Virus record (IMG/VR): IMGVR_UViG_3300037140_000074
Span: 1-43,377 of that record
Strand: one strand, 5' to 3'
DNA: 43,377 nucleotides
DNA from: a virus
This document shows, one piece after another, positions 13,090-30,776 of the stretch. Below the pieces are notes generated by a model that saw only the letters and a program-made list of their open reading frames with translations, was not told the DNA's origin and did not search any database. The stretch's first letter is position 1. Every line of letters begins with the position of its first letter. Position numbers and translations under genes: made by a program.

Positions 13090-13548
13090 ATGACAGACGA
13101 TCTATATCAACCAGTTCAAGGAGAGGTACTACCTCCAAGACAAATAGCCCAATTGCTGGTTTGTCGAATTGTTATTATCGTCACCGTGGCAACAATAGCA
13201 ATAGCAGTCATGTCTGTTTACTGCCCCAAAGACTCCAATAAAGATACAGTAACTATTTTAGTTGGCTTTGTGGGAGCCGCTATTGTAGGACTTCTTGGTT
13301 TAGCCAAATCCCAAGAAAATTCCTACCTGATTAAAATGGAAGGGGGTAAGAATCAGCAAATGCTACAAGACCATGCATGTTTAGTAAAAGATCAATTAAG
13401 CAGTTTGGCTAATGCAACGTATCGCATTGCGACTAAATCTGAAAATGCTGATACTGCAGCTGCTCTTAAAGAAGAAACTGAGCACACTGCAGCTACTCTT
13501 AAAGAAGAAACTGAGCACACTGCAGCTGCTCTTAAAGAAGTCAAATAA
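13090..13548 (+). CDS. Holin-like protein with two membrane helices and a repeated tail
   Basis: 152 residues. Two predicted membrane helices lie at about residues 23-43 and 54-72, joined by a short loop with Cys and Asp/Lys, followed by a long charged C-terminal tail. It sits directly before the endolysin and shares one base with it (TAATG), the usual holin place. The tail ends in 2.67 copies of an 11-residue unit, AALKEETEHTA. At 152 residues it is longer than most class II holins (about 65-95), because of this tail. The holin role is inferred from topology and context. Confidence 0.7.
   Translation: MTDDLYQPVQGEVLPPRQIAQLLVCRIVIIVTVATIAIAVMSVYCPKDSNKDTVTILVGFVGAAIVGLLGLAKSQENSYLIKMEGGKNQQMLQDHACLVKDQLSSLANATYRIATKSENADTAAALKEETEHTAATLKEETEHTAAALKEVK
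13453..13540 (+). repeat. 33-bp in-frame tandem repeat in the holin-like gene
   Basis: Units begin at 13453, 13486 and 13519. The second is full length and the third is cut after 22 bases. The copies differ by one base (GCTGCT against GCTACT), changing Ala to Thr. The unit encodes an 11-residue charged coiled-coil-like segment. Near-identity suggests recent duplication by slippage, and copy number is expected to vary between isolates. Confidence 0.9.
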
Positions 13549-22253: not shown

Positions 22254-22295
22254 TTGGTTATGTTGGTTATGTTGGTTATGTTGGTTATGTTGGTT
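22254..22295 (-). repeat. 9-bp tandem repeat before the DUF2815 gene
   Basis: Four full copies and a partial fifth of TTGGTTATG (plus strand) run from 22254 to 22295. They touch the stop codon of the DUF2800 gene and end about 15 bases before the DUF2815 ATG. On the transcribed strand the unit is CATAACCAA. The sequence is non-coding and low in structure. It might act as a translational spacer or binding array; slippage variation is likely. Confidence 0.9.
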
Positions 22296-26641: not shown

Positions 26642-28785
26642 AACAGATGCTTCCAAGCATCCATTTTCTGCCACATACCATCGCCAGAATTGCCTCTATT
26701 AAATTCAAATCCTAATTCTTTTAATACCTGATACGCACGTTTTCTGTGATGCGCTCCTACTTCTTTTGCTTGGAAGCCTAATGCTGCTAAAACTTCATTA
26801 GTACCAAATTCGTCAGGATGGGCTAAACACCAACCAGCTAATATATCTACCCACGGATCGGATTCTCGCCTGCTTGACTGTTCTGCGACTGCAAGTTTGA
26901 CAATTTCTGGATCTGTAATCCATGGTTTTTCGCCTTCTCGATAGCGATGACATGCTTCAGCGAAGTATTGATCTCGCATCTTTATTAATCTATCAATATC
27001 AAATCTTCCGGTAGCAACCGGCCAATATCGCCGGTTTTGAAAATCCCGTAAATATTCTCCTGACGCCGAAGGGTTAAGCGTTGCAATAAATACTGATTCT
27101 CTAGGCACCGATTCAGCAGTCCGAGCGTAGGAGGGACGGTATGTATCCACTGAAGTCGTAATAGTTTTTTTAAGCCAAGCAAACTCAGCCTTTGAAAATG
27201 TATTGTCAATTTCAGGTAGCTCAACAATCCATTTACCACGAAGAGCTTGATATGTGTCTTTATCATTTGGAATTAATTCCCCTGTTGAATACCAGTCACC
27301 GCCTAACGTTTCTACCCATGTACTTTTCTTCGTTCCCTGCTCAGATTCAAGAACTAATAAATAATCTTGCTTACAGCCAGGTTCAAATATTCGCTTAACT
27401 GCACTAATTAAAATACACCTGCCGGCATCTCTTGTGTACGGAGTATCCTTACAGCCAGTAGTATCAGGCAGTATTCTATCAAGCCGATTAAGCCCGTCCC
27501 ATTTAAGCCCATTTAAATAGTCTTTTACTGGATGATATGGCGTAGCTGCTACTCTGACAGCAGCTGCAATGCGTTCTATTCCTACCTCAAGCATGTATTC
27601 AGGTGTAGCTGATAACCAACCTTGAATATATTCATAATCGCCAGTAGACATGCCTTCAGTTTTGTTTATCTGATCTCGTCGCCAATCAGGCCTATTTTTA
27701 ATTTCCACTCTGTCAGCAAACTGATTATAAAAAATGCGTCCATGCCAATATTTAGAGTGACGCAAAATCCAAATTACATTTCCTTGTGTATTTGCCGCGC
27801 CTATCACTTTATTATTCTTGTCTAATTTTGGTGTGAGAATTTTTTGGAATAGAGTTTTTTTTACTTCTTCGTTTTGAAAACTATCTGAAGCAGTCACATT
27901 GTTCGATTGTTTTAGTACAGTTAATTCTGGCTTTTTAAATACTGCTTCTGGGCTGCTACTGCCAGGAGCATTTTTAGCGTAAGCATAAGCATTTTCAACA
28001 GTAGTCAGTAACTCTTTTTCAGGCAGTGGTGGTAAATTTCTTGGATTCCATTCATTAGCTAAATGCTGGTAAGCTACTTCTAATGGCAGATTTAAATCTC
28101 TTGCTCTGGCTGCAATTTTAAAAGCCGTAATGCCTCTTGTTCGGTCTGACTTTGGAGCCGCTGGTTCTTCACTTTGACAAATTTGCTTAAACTGATCTTC
28201 AGAATCTAGCGACCAATCATCAGCACCTGTTTTAACGGCGCTTGCTGCTTGTTCTAGCGTAGTTAATATGCTTAGTGGTAGTAATGCAGGCGCTCCGTCA
28301 TTTATAAGTACGTAATCGCCAACTACATGCCTGCCATCAGTCATAACTTGATCACGATGACAACCTGGGCCGACAATACAATGGTTTTCTGATCTAAATT
28401 CAATGCCTGGATATAGTTTCTGAGCTTTTCTAATTTTTATAGTAGGGTCTTTCTTATATCTTAAATGCCAGCCATTGCTCGGCGTTTTAACTGCTCTTGT
28501 CCCCGTCGGATATAGTGTCAGCCATTCTTTTAAAGGATCGCGTCCTGGTGGATAGTTTTTAGGATCACAATCTAAACAAAGATCATCTGCTTGTAAAGCT
28601 ATGCCATAACTGCCTTCTGGCTTGTAAACGCCTTTGCCCACTTTGTTCCAAGCCAAAAGTGCTGGCTCATTAGTATGGTGTTTCATAGGAAAATAGTGTT
28701 CTATTTCCTGCCAGCCGCTACTAATAGCGTTACAAGTATTGTCAGTTTTGTCAGTAGGTGGTATATTTGTACTTGCTTGATACAT
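26638..28785 (-). CDS. Bifunctional prim-pol / VapE-type replicative helicase
   Basis: 715 residues. The N-terminus is an archaeo-eukaryotic-type prim-pol domain: ADDLCLDCDPKN with Asp72 and Asp74, SNGWHLRY with His107, and GIEFRSENHCIVGPG. A middle linker with PriCT-like helices follows. The C-terminus is a VapE (PF05272-type) superfamily 3-like ATPase: WDGLNRLDRI, Walker A in LESEQGTKKST (479-489), Walker B in KWIVELPEID (518-527) and the later SVPRESVFIATLNP. Together these would start replication by making primers and unwinding. AAAGGATCAA is the ribosome site. Upstream lie a hairpin and the pentamer tract, a possible origin. Confidence 0.92.
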   Translation of the reverse strand: MYQASTNIPPTDKTDNTCNAISSGWQEIEHYFPMKHHTNEPALLAWNKVGKGVYKPEGSYGIALQADDLCLDCDPKNYPPGRDPLKEWLTLYPTGTRAVKTPSNGWHLRYKKDPTIKIRKAQKLYPGIEFRSENHCIVGPGCHRDQVMTDGRHVVGDYVLINDGAPALLPLSILTTLEQAASAVKTGADDWSLDSEDQFKQICQSEEPAAPKSDRTRGITAFKIAARARDLNLPLEVAYQHLANEWNPRNLPPLPEKELLTTVENAYAYAKNAPGSSSPEAVFKKPELTVLKQSNNVTASDSFQNEEVKKTLFQKILTPKLDKNNKVIGAANTQGNVIWILRHSKYWHGRIFYNQFADRVEIKNRPDWRRDQINKTEGMSTGDYEYIQGWLSATPEYMLEVGIERIAAAVRVAATPYHPVKDYLNGLKWDGLNRLDRILPDTTGCKDTPYTRDAGRCILISAVKRIFEPGCKQDYLLVLESEQGTKKSTWVETLGGDWYSTGELIPNDKDTYQALRGKWIVELPEIDNTFSKAEFAWLKKTITTSVDTYRPSYARTAESVPRESVFIATLNPSASGEYLRDFQNRRYWPVATGRFDIDRLIKMRDQYFAEACHRYREGEKPWITDPEIVKLAVAEQSSRRESDPWVDILAGWCLAHPDEFGTNEVLAALGFQAKEVGAHHRKRAYQVLKELGFEFNRGNSGDGMWQKMDAWKHLL

Positions 28786-28842: not shown

Positions 28843-28886
28843 ATAATTCTAGACTTCTTGATTAGAGAAGTCTAGAATTATTTTTT
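28843..28886 (+). terminator. Perfect 16-bp hairpin with T run, opposite to gene direction
   Basis: ATAATTCTAGACTTCT (28843-28858) and AGAAGTCTAGAATTAT (28866-28881) pair without mismatch around a 7-base loop. Six T residues begin with the last base of the stem on the plus strand. All annotated genes nearby read on the minus strand, where no T run follows. It adjoins the pentamer tract that starts at 28894. It could block plus-strand (antisense) transcription coming toward the tract, or be a DNA cruciform. Confidence 0.7.
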
Positions 28887-28893
28887 CCTTTTT

Positions 28894-29481
28894 GCCTGCT
28901 GTGATTCGCTGTGCTCAACTCCGCTTTGCTTCGCTTTGCTTCGCTTCGCCTGCTACGCTATGCTGAGCTTCGCTGAGCTTTGCTTGGCTACGCTATGCCT
29001 GCTGTGCTGCGCTTGGCTATGCTTCGCTGGGCTTTGCTTAGCTGTGCCTGCTGTGATTTGCTGCGCTCTACTGGACTAAACTGAGCCCCACTATGCCTGC
29101 TGTGCTTCGCTATGCTGGGCTACGCTCTGCCTGCTGCGCTTTGCTTTGCTTCGCTCTGCTTCGCTAGGCCTGCTGAGCTAGGCTCCGCTTCGCTGGGCTA
29201 GGCTACGCTGGGCTATGCTACGCTGGGCTACGCCTGCTGTGCTAGGCTTTGCTGTGCTTCGCTGTGCTTCGCTTCGCTACGCTGGGCTGTGCTTCGCTTC
29301 GCTTTGCCTGCTGTGCTGCGCCCTGCTGTGCTGGGCTGTGCTGGGCTTAGCTTCGCCTGCTGTGCTTTACAGGGCTTCGCCTGCTGTGCTGCGCTTGGCT
29401 CCGCTCGGCTCCGCTCGGCTTCGCTTTGCCTGCTATGCTGCGCTTCGCTCGGCTTCGCTCCGCTTTGCTTTGCCTGCTATG
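28894..29481. repeat. 588-bp degenerate pentamer (NNGCT) tract with GCCTGCT punctuation
   Basis: The whole gap between the prim-pol gene and the gene at 29484 is made of five-base units ending in GCT, with two variable bases (CG, TT, GG, AC, TG and so on). GCCTGCT words occur at 28894, 28948, 28997, 29046, 29095, 29129, 29168, 29232, 29306, 29355, 29379, 29428 and 29472. All twelve intervals are 4 modulo 5, and 49 occurs five times. The tract is visibly richer in G and C than its neighbours. Open frames through it are low-complexity artefacts. Possible roles are replication origin, packaging site or structured RNA; none is shown. Confidence 0.93.
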
Positions 29482-29483
29482 AA

Positions 29484-29996
29484 TTATTTATCCTCCCCTC
29501 CTTTAGAAGCGTAAGCTTTAATTACTTTATTTATCACTATAAATACAGGATTTAATTCACCAAGCATATAAAAACGGCTTTTAAATACGCCTAACTCCAT
29601 AAATGCTGTCTTTAGTAGCTCATCTCGTAGTTTTGCATCCTTCATCACATCTTCAATATCTCTGTAGCCCCCTCCACGACTACGATCTGAAAGAAGGCTG
29701 ACAAATTTACGAGTTGGTGGATTAATACATACAGTTAGGTTACTCAGATCCTTTTTGACTGGCATAACAATTACTATTTGAATTAATCGCTGCGCCTGTA
29801 ATAAACGATACTTTTCTCCCGCTTCTGAATCATCCCAAATAAACTCGTAATGCAAAGCGCTTTTAACATCCCTAGCAGCATCTAATACTTGCTGTGATTT
29901 TAAAAGGCTACGCTTAGTTTTAAGCTTTCGAGCAAGCTCCGTAAGTTCATCATAAATAATTTGTTCGCGCGTTATTTCAATATTTGTCTGACTCAT
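29484..29996 (-). CDS. Conserved phage protein of unknown function
   Basis: 170 residues. HYEFIWDDSEAGEKYRLLQAQRLIQIV, then a middle with CINPPTRKFVSLLSDRSRGGGYRDIEDVM and LRDELLKTAFMELGVFKSRFYML, match a widespread phage hypothetical family as I remember it. It is usually encoded next to the family of the upstream gene (29996-30661), as here. The product is soluble, mixed alpha/beta. Its start shares one base with the upstream stop (TAATG). The stop lies two bases from the pentamer tract. Confidence 0.7.
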   Translation of the reverse strand: MSQTNIEITREQIIYDELTELARKLKTKRSLLKSQQVLDAARDVKSALHYEFIWDDSEAGEKYRLLQAQRLIQIVIVMPVKKDLSNLTVCINPPTRKFVSLLSDRSRGGGYRDIEDVMKDAKLRDELLKTAFMELGVFKSRFYMLGELNPVFIVINKVIKAYASKGGEDK

Positions 29997-30661
29997 TATT
30001 TTGCACCTACTTTTTTAGCGTTAGCTATACCAAATGTTCCCCAGCCCATACCTACACTACTCTTAGAAAATGGTCTTCCACAACCAACACCAACTTGTTG
30101 GCCAGCTCTAGCCATTAAATTAAATGCTGATTCATGAGACATCATATCCGCGTCATAACTCACTTTAACTTGTGCTGTCCATTCTCTCCACATAGCGCGA
30201 GTTACGATATTCGTTGTTCCCATACCAATACGGACATCAGATTGAAGCATTTCAGAACCATTTTTACTGTAAATGCGCACTAATGGTGTCCCATCTTCTT
30301 TATCAAACCCATCAGGATCAACAAATAGAGCCATTTTAAATTTAGTCATTTCTTCCCCTACCGCACTAGCTGCTCGTACCATTGCAGATTTAAAAGCGGT
30401 ACATGGAATACCAACCCAACCATCATCGCTGATATGCTGAGAATCCAGGTATTCTTGATCGTAATCTCTGACTTTCCTACTAGCTTTTTTGCCTTTTTTA
30501 TCTGCTTTTTCAGTACTCATATCAAGTAGCATTGTCTGTTTAGCCTTTTCACTAAATTTACATTGTACGTATGGTGCTGTTCCTTCAATATTTATTTGTA
30601 CTTCTTGAATGTTCGGCGCGGAAATATTAACCATGCCTGTTTCTTTTTTACCAAATGCCAT
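29996..30661 (-). CDS. Conserved early phage protein
   Basis: 221 residues. Features are QINIEGTAPYVQCKFSEKA near the start, a Lys-rich loop, GWVGIPCTAFKSAMVRAAS in the middle, VRIYSKNGSEMLQSDVRIGM, and a Gly-rich end (GRPFSKSSVGMGWGTFGIA). I recognise this as a phage protein family commonly found in early operons but know no function for it. The Gly-rich loops recall RAMP-type folds, which is speculation. The ribosome site is AGAGGATCAA, as in the DUF2800 gene. Confidence 0.7.
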   Translation of the reverse strand: MAFGKKETGMVNISAPNIQEVQINIEGTAPYVQCKFSEKAKQTMLLDMSTEKADKKGKKASRKVRDYDQEYLDSQHISDDGWVGIPCTAFKSAMVRAASAVGEEMTKFKMALFVDPDGFDKEDGTPLVRIYSKNGSEMLQSDVRIGMGTTNIVTRAMWREWTAQVKVSYDADMMSHESAFNLMARAGQQVGVGCGRPFSKSSVGMGWGTFGIANAKKVGAK

Positions 30662-30680: not shown

Positions 30681-30771
30681 CCAACTAACTTTTAGTTGGG
30701 TATTCAAGGCAGCGCTGGGCTACGCTTCGCTGCGCCCCGCTTAGATATGATAAGCCTGCCTTGAATACCAA
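30681..30771. repeat. Two competing hairpins enclosing a pentamer island
   Basis: A long stem pairs 30696-30712 (TTGG, bulged G, TATTCAAGGCAG) with 30756-30771 (CTGCCTTGAATACCAA). Its 43-base loop is largely the same NNGCT pentamer sequence as the 28.9-29.5 kb tract (about 30711-30741). A second hairpin, CCAACTAA (30681-30688) with TTAGTTGG (30692-30699), shares four bases with the long stem, so only one can form fully. The structure lies in the leader of the 30661 gene. It could regulate that gene or be a small insertion element. Confidence 0.8.
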
Positions 30772-30776
30772 ACTAT

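Follow-up and report, generated by a model that had tools for sequence, protein, structure and literature searches.

VIPR (Viral Interference Programmable Repeat) systems are the subject of a preprint that the Doudna laboratory posted in 2026 (10.64898/2026.04.26.720920, PMC13142463). They consist of a Vipr protein of the RAMP type, an accessory (vap) gene, and vrRNAs in which 9–16 GGY repeats alternate with hypervariable NN dinucleotides; the features described there also include a vap that acts on DNA and an invariable structured 3' tail on the vrRNA. The NN letters jointly specify a DNA target in which the pairs stand one skipped base apart, the skipped base usually being a codon wobble position, and the systems repress genes of competing phages. 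The vrRNA co-purifies with Vipr, and the VIPR of phage SUSP1 shows reprogrammable 1-nt-skip DNA recognition. All seven VIPR types are given as having GGY/NN "or a related consensus (fig. S17)", and VIPR is presented as the first known case of an RNA-guided system reading a gapped code, with an argument that it precedes CRISPR (PMC13142463).

The 43,377 bases analysed here, referred to below as the window, make up an entire IMG/VR virus record, among whose other genes are those for a head-tail connector, a family-A DNA polymerase, a Prim-Pol/VapE protein, an SNF2 helicase and an exonuclease. The window very probably contains a VIPR locus carried by a phage, with a leftward transcript that is predicted to cover vipr (30661–29996), vap (29996–29484) and, in its 3' portion, some 12 guide RNAs in an array (29481–28894). 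A predicted Vipr RAMP protein with its G-loop, a pentamer vrRNA array flanking vipr, and a putative accessory gene are all present. The in-register triplets near the vipr gene, read on the vipr sense strand, are 98 AGC, 14 GGC and 5 AGT, so that 103 of the 117 are AGY; the triplets thus depart from the strict GGY of VIPR, and we class the locus as a VIPR with a variant AGY triplet and not as a canonical GGY member.

The array (28894–29481, minus strand) was described in the initial annotation as degenerate NNGCT pentamers with phased GCCTGCT punctuation, and this description is borne out. The word GCCTGCT occurs 13 times at 28894–29472, its 12 intervals (54, 49, 49, 49, 34, 39, 64, 74, 49, 24, 49 and 44) are all 4 modulo 5, and whole NNGCT pentamers fill the stretches between the marks, with 97 GCT in 588 bp. 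The autocorrelation check suggested in that annotation gives 0.600 at lag 5 (0.294±0.024 and a maximum of 0.374 in 1000 first-order Markov shuffles) and 0.583 at lag 49 (0.297±0.024, maximum 0.386, again in 1000 such shuffles), both far above the shuffled maxima. The tract was also rightly called GC-rich in an AT-richer genome (60.5% GC vs 40.6% for the whole 43,377-base record), and two of its five bases are indeed variable, hypervariable NN dinucleotides standing beside a constant triplet. Read on the minus strand, the tract is (AGC-NN)n in 12 register blocks split by AGC-A-GGC junctions. Each GCCTGCT mark is such a junction, in which the triplets lie 1 nt apart instead of 2, so that the 5-nt register breaks there and, as had been noticed, the phase shifts by one base. 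The blocks have the formula GGC NN (AGY NN)n AGC and neighbouring blocks are linked by a single A; the opening triplet is GGC in every block, the body triplet is AGC, the number of NN per block is 4–14, and the final NN is AC in most blocks.

In minus-strand order the NN letters are as follows. Block U1 (29432–29474) reads AA AA GG GA CG GA GC AT; U2 (29383–29430) reads AA GA CG GG CG GG CA GC AC; U3 (29359–29381), which is short and probably decayed, reads GA CC AA AC; and U4 (29310–29357) reads GA TA CC AC CC AC AG GC AC. Next come U5 (29236–29308) with AA GA GA AC CC GT GA GA AC GA AC AA CT AC and U6 (29172–29234) with GT CC GT AT CC GT CT CC GA GG CT TC, and then U7 (29133–29170) with CT GA AG GA AA AA GC and U8 (29099–29131) with AG GT CC AT GA AC. 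U9 (29050–29097), which has four AGT triplets, reads AT GG TC TT CC AG GC AA AC; U10 (29001–29048) reads AC TA AA CC GA AT CA GC AC; U11 (28952–28999) reads AT GT CA AA TC GA TC AT GT; and U12 (28898–28950) reads GA GA AA GA AA GG TG AC GA AC.

The gene at 29996–30661 (minus strand, 221 amino acids) is, by profile comparison and structure prediction, a Vipr protein with a predicted Csm3/Cas7-like RAMP fold. It matches phrog_4652 (E=3.5e-17), a profile of its family matches PDB entry 36pp, "SUSP1 Vipr protein" (E=1.6e-45), and the family member of Felixounavirus Alf5 is near-identical to 36pp. Its AlphaFold2 model (pLDDT 82.5) matches Csm3-type RAMPs of CRISPR types III and VII (Foldseek, E down to 6e-6), and it carries the GxGxxR loop in the form GVGCGRP, which contains Cys194. 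The candidate vap gene (29484–29996, minus strand, 170 amino acids; phrog_15946, E=1.8e-13) overlaps the vipr stop codon, and the array begins immediately after it. Its homologues lie beside vipr in Mycobacterium phage Saal, cyanophage Cy-LDV1, Gordonia phage UmaThurman and IMG/VR loci; its model (pLDDT 78) gave no Foldseek match better than E=1.9. A strong minus-strand hairpin in the vipr 5' leader (30693–30775; −46.2 kcal/mol over 126 nt, z −5.4) encloses a short AGC-NN tract, and a 16-bp minus-strand hairpin just downstream of the array (28843–28881; within a 111-nt fold of −27.6 kcal/mol, z −4.0) is a candidate 3' tail or processing/termination element. As for an invariable structured 3' tail, inside the blocks there are only the preferred last NN (AC) and the junction, with the one hairpin after the array. 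Rfam found no match in the window or in eight loci. Two other repeats were seen in the window: at 22254–22295, in the gap before the exonuclease gene, TTGGTTATG is repeated perfectly 4.7 times, an iteron-like arrangement that is a candidate origin or operator, and at 13453–13540 a 33-bp unit is present 2.7 times inside an ORF of the structural region.

A scan of viral contigs with a pattern of seven in-phase GCT triplets matched at least 119 stretches. Among the matches listed, about 40 contigs have degenerate tracts in which many of the 16 possible NN occur, and the cellular genome matches listed for the same pattern are simple repeats with few NN types. ORFs around the tracts were called and compared all against all, and the dominant family, beside the tract in 32 contigs among the matches listed and thus reached from the DNA pattern alone, is PHROG 4652 (~195 amino acids, listed by PHROG as unknown function); its coding strand is opposite GCT, so that the tract is AGC-NN in the sense of the gene. 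Conversely, when the protein alone was the starting point, 13 of 13 named phage and plasmid loci proved to carry GGC/GGT-NN pentamers along the sense strand of vipr: Felixounavirus Alf5, P. aeruginosa LESphi2, Gordonia MakoManhole, Trine, UmaThurman and Ecliptus, Mycobacterium Saal, LittleE and prophiBWHA-1, Pseudomonas Medea1, cyanophage Cy-LDV1 and two plasmids. The tract has sense-strand orientation relative to vipr in 40 of 41 loci, and this linkage spans phages of Proteobacteria, Actinobacteria and Cyanobacteria at loci that differ in their neighbouring genes, often with no replication genes there. The junction of the window recurs in its clade: in loci L065, L087 and L083 the junctions mostly have spacer A and a first triplet GGC, and GGC-A-GGC is found in Cy-LDV1, Saal, Ecliptus and L285. 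The search of related phages that had been proposed thus turns up the pentamer grammar in tens of viral contigs that are independent of one another and, spelled GGC/GGT-NN, also in phage isolates, and for this reason the tract is not the assembly artefact that the initial annotation had named as a refuting outcome.

Several narrower searches were also made. A nucleotide search with the tract in the named phages gave no match, the prim-pol protein as query found no syntenic relatives in viral contigs, the Family A alignment was too diverse to serve as a locus query, and no match to the window Vipr came up among 386 cyanobacterial genomes, a set taken from the phylum to which a Nostoc genome belongs. 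Among 398 Pseudomonadota genomes drawn evenly from the phylum, 15 have a phrog_4652 (Vipr) match, and every detectable tract there is of the GGY kind. In Gordonia phage UmaThurman, gp40 (L255, 3628–3951), annotated "hypothetical protein" and with translation MVRRGAAGRGQVRLGRSGSVRLGRSG..., sits on the pentamer tract and is probably a spurious ORF over the vrRNA array. In Gordonia phage MakoManhole (L252, 2940–3150) two near-identical segments between pentamer tracts carry the tRNA T-arm-like sequence GTGGGGTTCGACTCC; these segments, which are possibly vrRNA tails, drew no call from ARAGORN or Rfam.

If targets are read as NNxNNx with x at the wobble position, the NN letters of a guide should resemble codon positions 1–2 in one orientation. 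Scored with the window's own codon usage, sense positions 1–2 exceed phase-mixed coding by 14.3 nats for the window NN (n=86); the letter-shuffle null is 0.1±3.6 nats and reaches 14.3 in none of 5000 shuffles (p<0.0002), and reversing each NN gives −13.2 nats. In 41 AGY contigs (1832 NN) the total is z = 8.3 over shuffles and the score is positive in 33 of the 41, with t=5.1 for the AGY-contig signal when the window is left out. Sense 1–2 is the best of the six phases in 28 of 42 contigs, and its likelihood is above that of the phase mixture itself in only 24 of the 42. Period 3 and the sense direction of the NN thus follow without any target, and the NN grammar of the window is as a one-base skip predicts, in support of such a skip.

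Exact 1-nt-skip scans of viral_contigs with four window guides and one guide of locus L027 gave 1 match for U6, 11 for U5, none for U11 and 8 for U10. These look like chance, and no natural target of the window guides was found in these scans: the U5 matches are low-complexity KEETPVEE stretches, the remaining guide letters fit the U6, U5 and U10 matches poorly, and no contig has convincing targets of two guides. The L027 guide fits the vipr gene of L067 in 17 of 18 letters with the skips at wobble positions, which is suggestive only, the exact scan being empty and shuffled guides equally good overall. In the fetched loci, matches with a 1-nt skip show no enrichment against other skips or against shuffled guides.

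Across 41 Vipr loci there is a bimodal split in the first base of the triplet, A making up 0.62–1.00 in 28 loci and 0–0.11 in 13; the AGY loci of this set were found through an AGC-type pattern, so their share is no measure of abundance. The Vipr tree calls for at least five to six changes between A and G, and on it the window (AGC) lies in a 100/100 clade with Cy-LDV1 (GGC), a Rhodoplanes plasmid (GGC) and L083 (AGY). In a scan of all columns, the best correlate of the A/G state is residue 194 (window numbering) of the GxGxxR G-loop, which is Asp or Glu in 13 of 13 GGY loci vs 1 of 28 AGY loci; the Fisher value of 8e-10 is optimistic because the residue was picked by that scan. Arg153 tracks the state less strictly (12/13 GGY vs 3/28 AGY). 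Among phylogenetically independent pairs 4.5 of 5 go in the expected direction, a number at which a sign test cannot reach 0.05. Of 22 further Viprs scored from other genomes and contigs, 19 have a detectable tract and all 19 fit the residue-194 rule; this set includes L248 and L306–L307, which are the same as or close to earlier loci, L244 and L245, from contigs already known for AGC tracts, and 14 new GGY cases, some of them closely related to one another. The 112-kb phage record IMGVR_UViG_3300028837_001424 (G009; loci L240, L248 and L066) has two Vipr genes 3 kb apart (68508–69089 and about 71831–72469), each with a matching array: the triplets are GGC/GGT beside D194 and AGC beside A194. 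Locus L082 has Arg153 and Glu194, yet an AGC-NN tract on the vipr antisense strand. Read in that direction its array (1297–1775; AGC-NN, AAC-T-GGC junctions) is an apparent exception to the residue-194 rule; the vipr sense reading (GCT-NN, GCC-A-GTT junctions), with first base G and spacer A, fits the rule and would be a possible third triplet dialect.

We lean, with some reserve, towards a reading of these patterns as follows: GGY and AGY are mutually exclusive dialects, at least two in number, between which Vipr has switched back and forth at least five times by way of residue 194 (acidic for G, uncharged for A), giving orthogonal systems, and in the clade of the window the one-base register break is the boundary between guides. 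The acidic side chain at 194 would read the first purine by selecting guanine (GGY), a natural reading being that the carboxylate pairs with guanine N1/N2, and a small or uncharged residue, such as the Cys of the window, may allow adenine (AGY). The block-opening triplet stays GGC, and would have to be read differently or belong to processing. By analogy with the published system (PMC13142463), Vipr would oligomerise on the RNA and hold the constant triplet, each NN would be presented for pairing with double-stranded DNA in the pattern NNxNNxNN, and the outcome would be repression of genes of competing phages. Since AGC-A-GGC breaks the 5-nt register, a Vipr filament presumably could not run through it; the break would end one filament and start the next, and each block would then be a separate guide.

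Four functions had been suggested for the tract in the initial annotation, of which only the patterned RNA (AGCNN) is right, and even there its cause, a guide array with a vipr gene 0.5 kb away, was missed; the packaging site and the recombination substrate are wrong for what is a VIPR guide array. As for an origin, the tract is GC-rich and lies ~110 bp 5' of the Prim-Pol/VapE-like gene, with AT-rich hairpin DNA between array and gene, and could be a DNA-level replication element of that module with iteron-like sites read by the primase-helicase. The position directly before this gene, as first noted, is real (its ATG is at 28785), but the neighbours that matter are the two genes on the other side of the tract, and the link to the prim-pol gene is incidental, other tract loci having no such neighbour: across unrelated phages the tract accompanies vipr and not the helicase, the neighbours vary and are often not replication genes, the tract keeps one strand with respect to vipr, its triplet goes with the identity of a Vipr residue and the NN letters are codon-like, and we consider an origin, iteron-type or other, highly improbable. 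Slippage of a 5-bp unit into a neutral degenerate satellite would account for a tract that is pentameric, GC-rich and partly repetitive, but not for hypervariable NN beside a constant triplet, for identical register breaks, or for the repeated linkage of one protein family and one strand in phages of three bacterial phyla, and these observations contradict it. TRAP-type RNA binding uses a NAG-NN pattern and was dropped because the linked protein is a RAMP; a G-quadruplex was dropped because AGC is without a GG run; and a CRISPR array was rejected, as only a 7-bp word recurs and no cas gene is among the scanned proteins, the Vipr/vap pair included.

The last alternative accepts the RNA and the protein and denies only the guide: Vipr would bind the transcript through AGY as a scaffold or sponge, with the NN free to vary. 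The protein-RNA linkage and NN freedom would look alike under this reading, the co-purification of vrRNA with Vipr (PMC13142463) agrees with it, and so does the lack of targets in the exact scans of viral_contigs. The NN are not free, however, but have the sense codon 1–2 grammar that no shuffle of the window letters equals and that recurs over the 41 contigs, and the DNA recognition by SUSP1 VIPR is reprogrammable (PMC13142463); a scaffold or sponge is accordingly improbable, and a guide array remains our reading.

New beyond the main text of the preprint (PMC13142463) are the switch between A and G and the residue proposed for it, the model of the junctions, and a codon test that needs no target. 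The window offers an AGY-for-GGY dialect, the amino acid that likely chooses it, and a suggested delimitation of guides in head-to-tail arrays, and the codon-grammar test recovers the direction of the guides and the one-base skip from an array alone, whatever its targets. If this is true, one residue would be enough to predict orthogonal VIPRs, which could be used together, and many of the pentamer tracts that viral contigs carry without an explanation would turn into readable lists of guides.

Among the closest known systems is the type II VIPR of Escherichia phage SUSP1 (PDB 36pp), with which the window shares a phrog_4652 Vipr RAMP, an adjacent accessory gene, and intergenic sense-strand pentamer arrays of a constant triplet and hypervariable NN. 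It differs in its triplet (AGY instead of GGY), in units joined head to tail through AGC-A-GGC where SUSP1 has ~100-nt vrRNAs each with a structured tail, in the family of its accessory gene (phrog_15946), and in the place of its Vipr on a distant branch of the Vipr tree. The closest Vipr relatives are those of cyanophage Cy-LDV1 (BK059895) and the Rhodoplanes serenus plasmid NZ_LR026982, at 48% and 42% identity, respectively; Cy-LDV1 also has register-break junctions (GGC-A-GGC) and a homologous vap, but both relatives combine GGC/GGY with Glu194, whereas the window has AGC and Cys194. Mycobacterium phage Saal and Gordonia phages UmaThurman and Ecliptus belong to the same wider clade (97/91), and this group has GGC-A-GGC junctions, with vap homologues in Saal and UmaThurman; unlike the window, all three have the GGY code and an acidic residue 194. 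The predicted fold (Foldseek E=6e-6 to Csm3) and the glycine-rich loop resemble the Class 1 CRISPR RAMP backbones (Csm3/Cas7). In contrast to those systems, no cas genes or CRISPR repeats are seen in the window, and its units are of 5 nt with two guide bases where those of CRISPR are of 6 nt with five.
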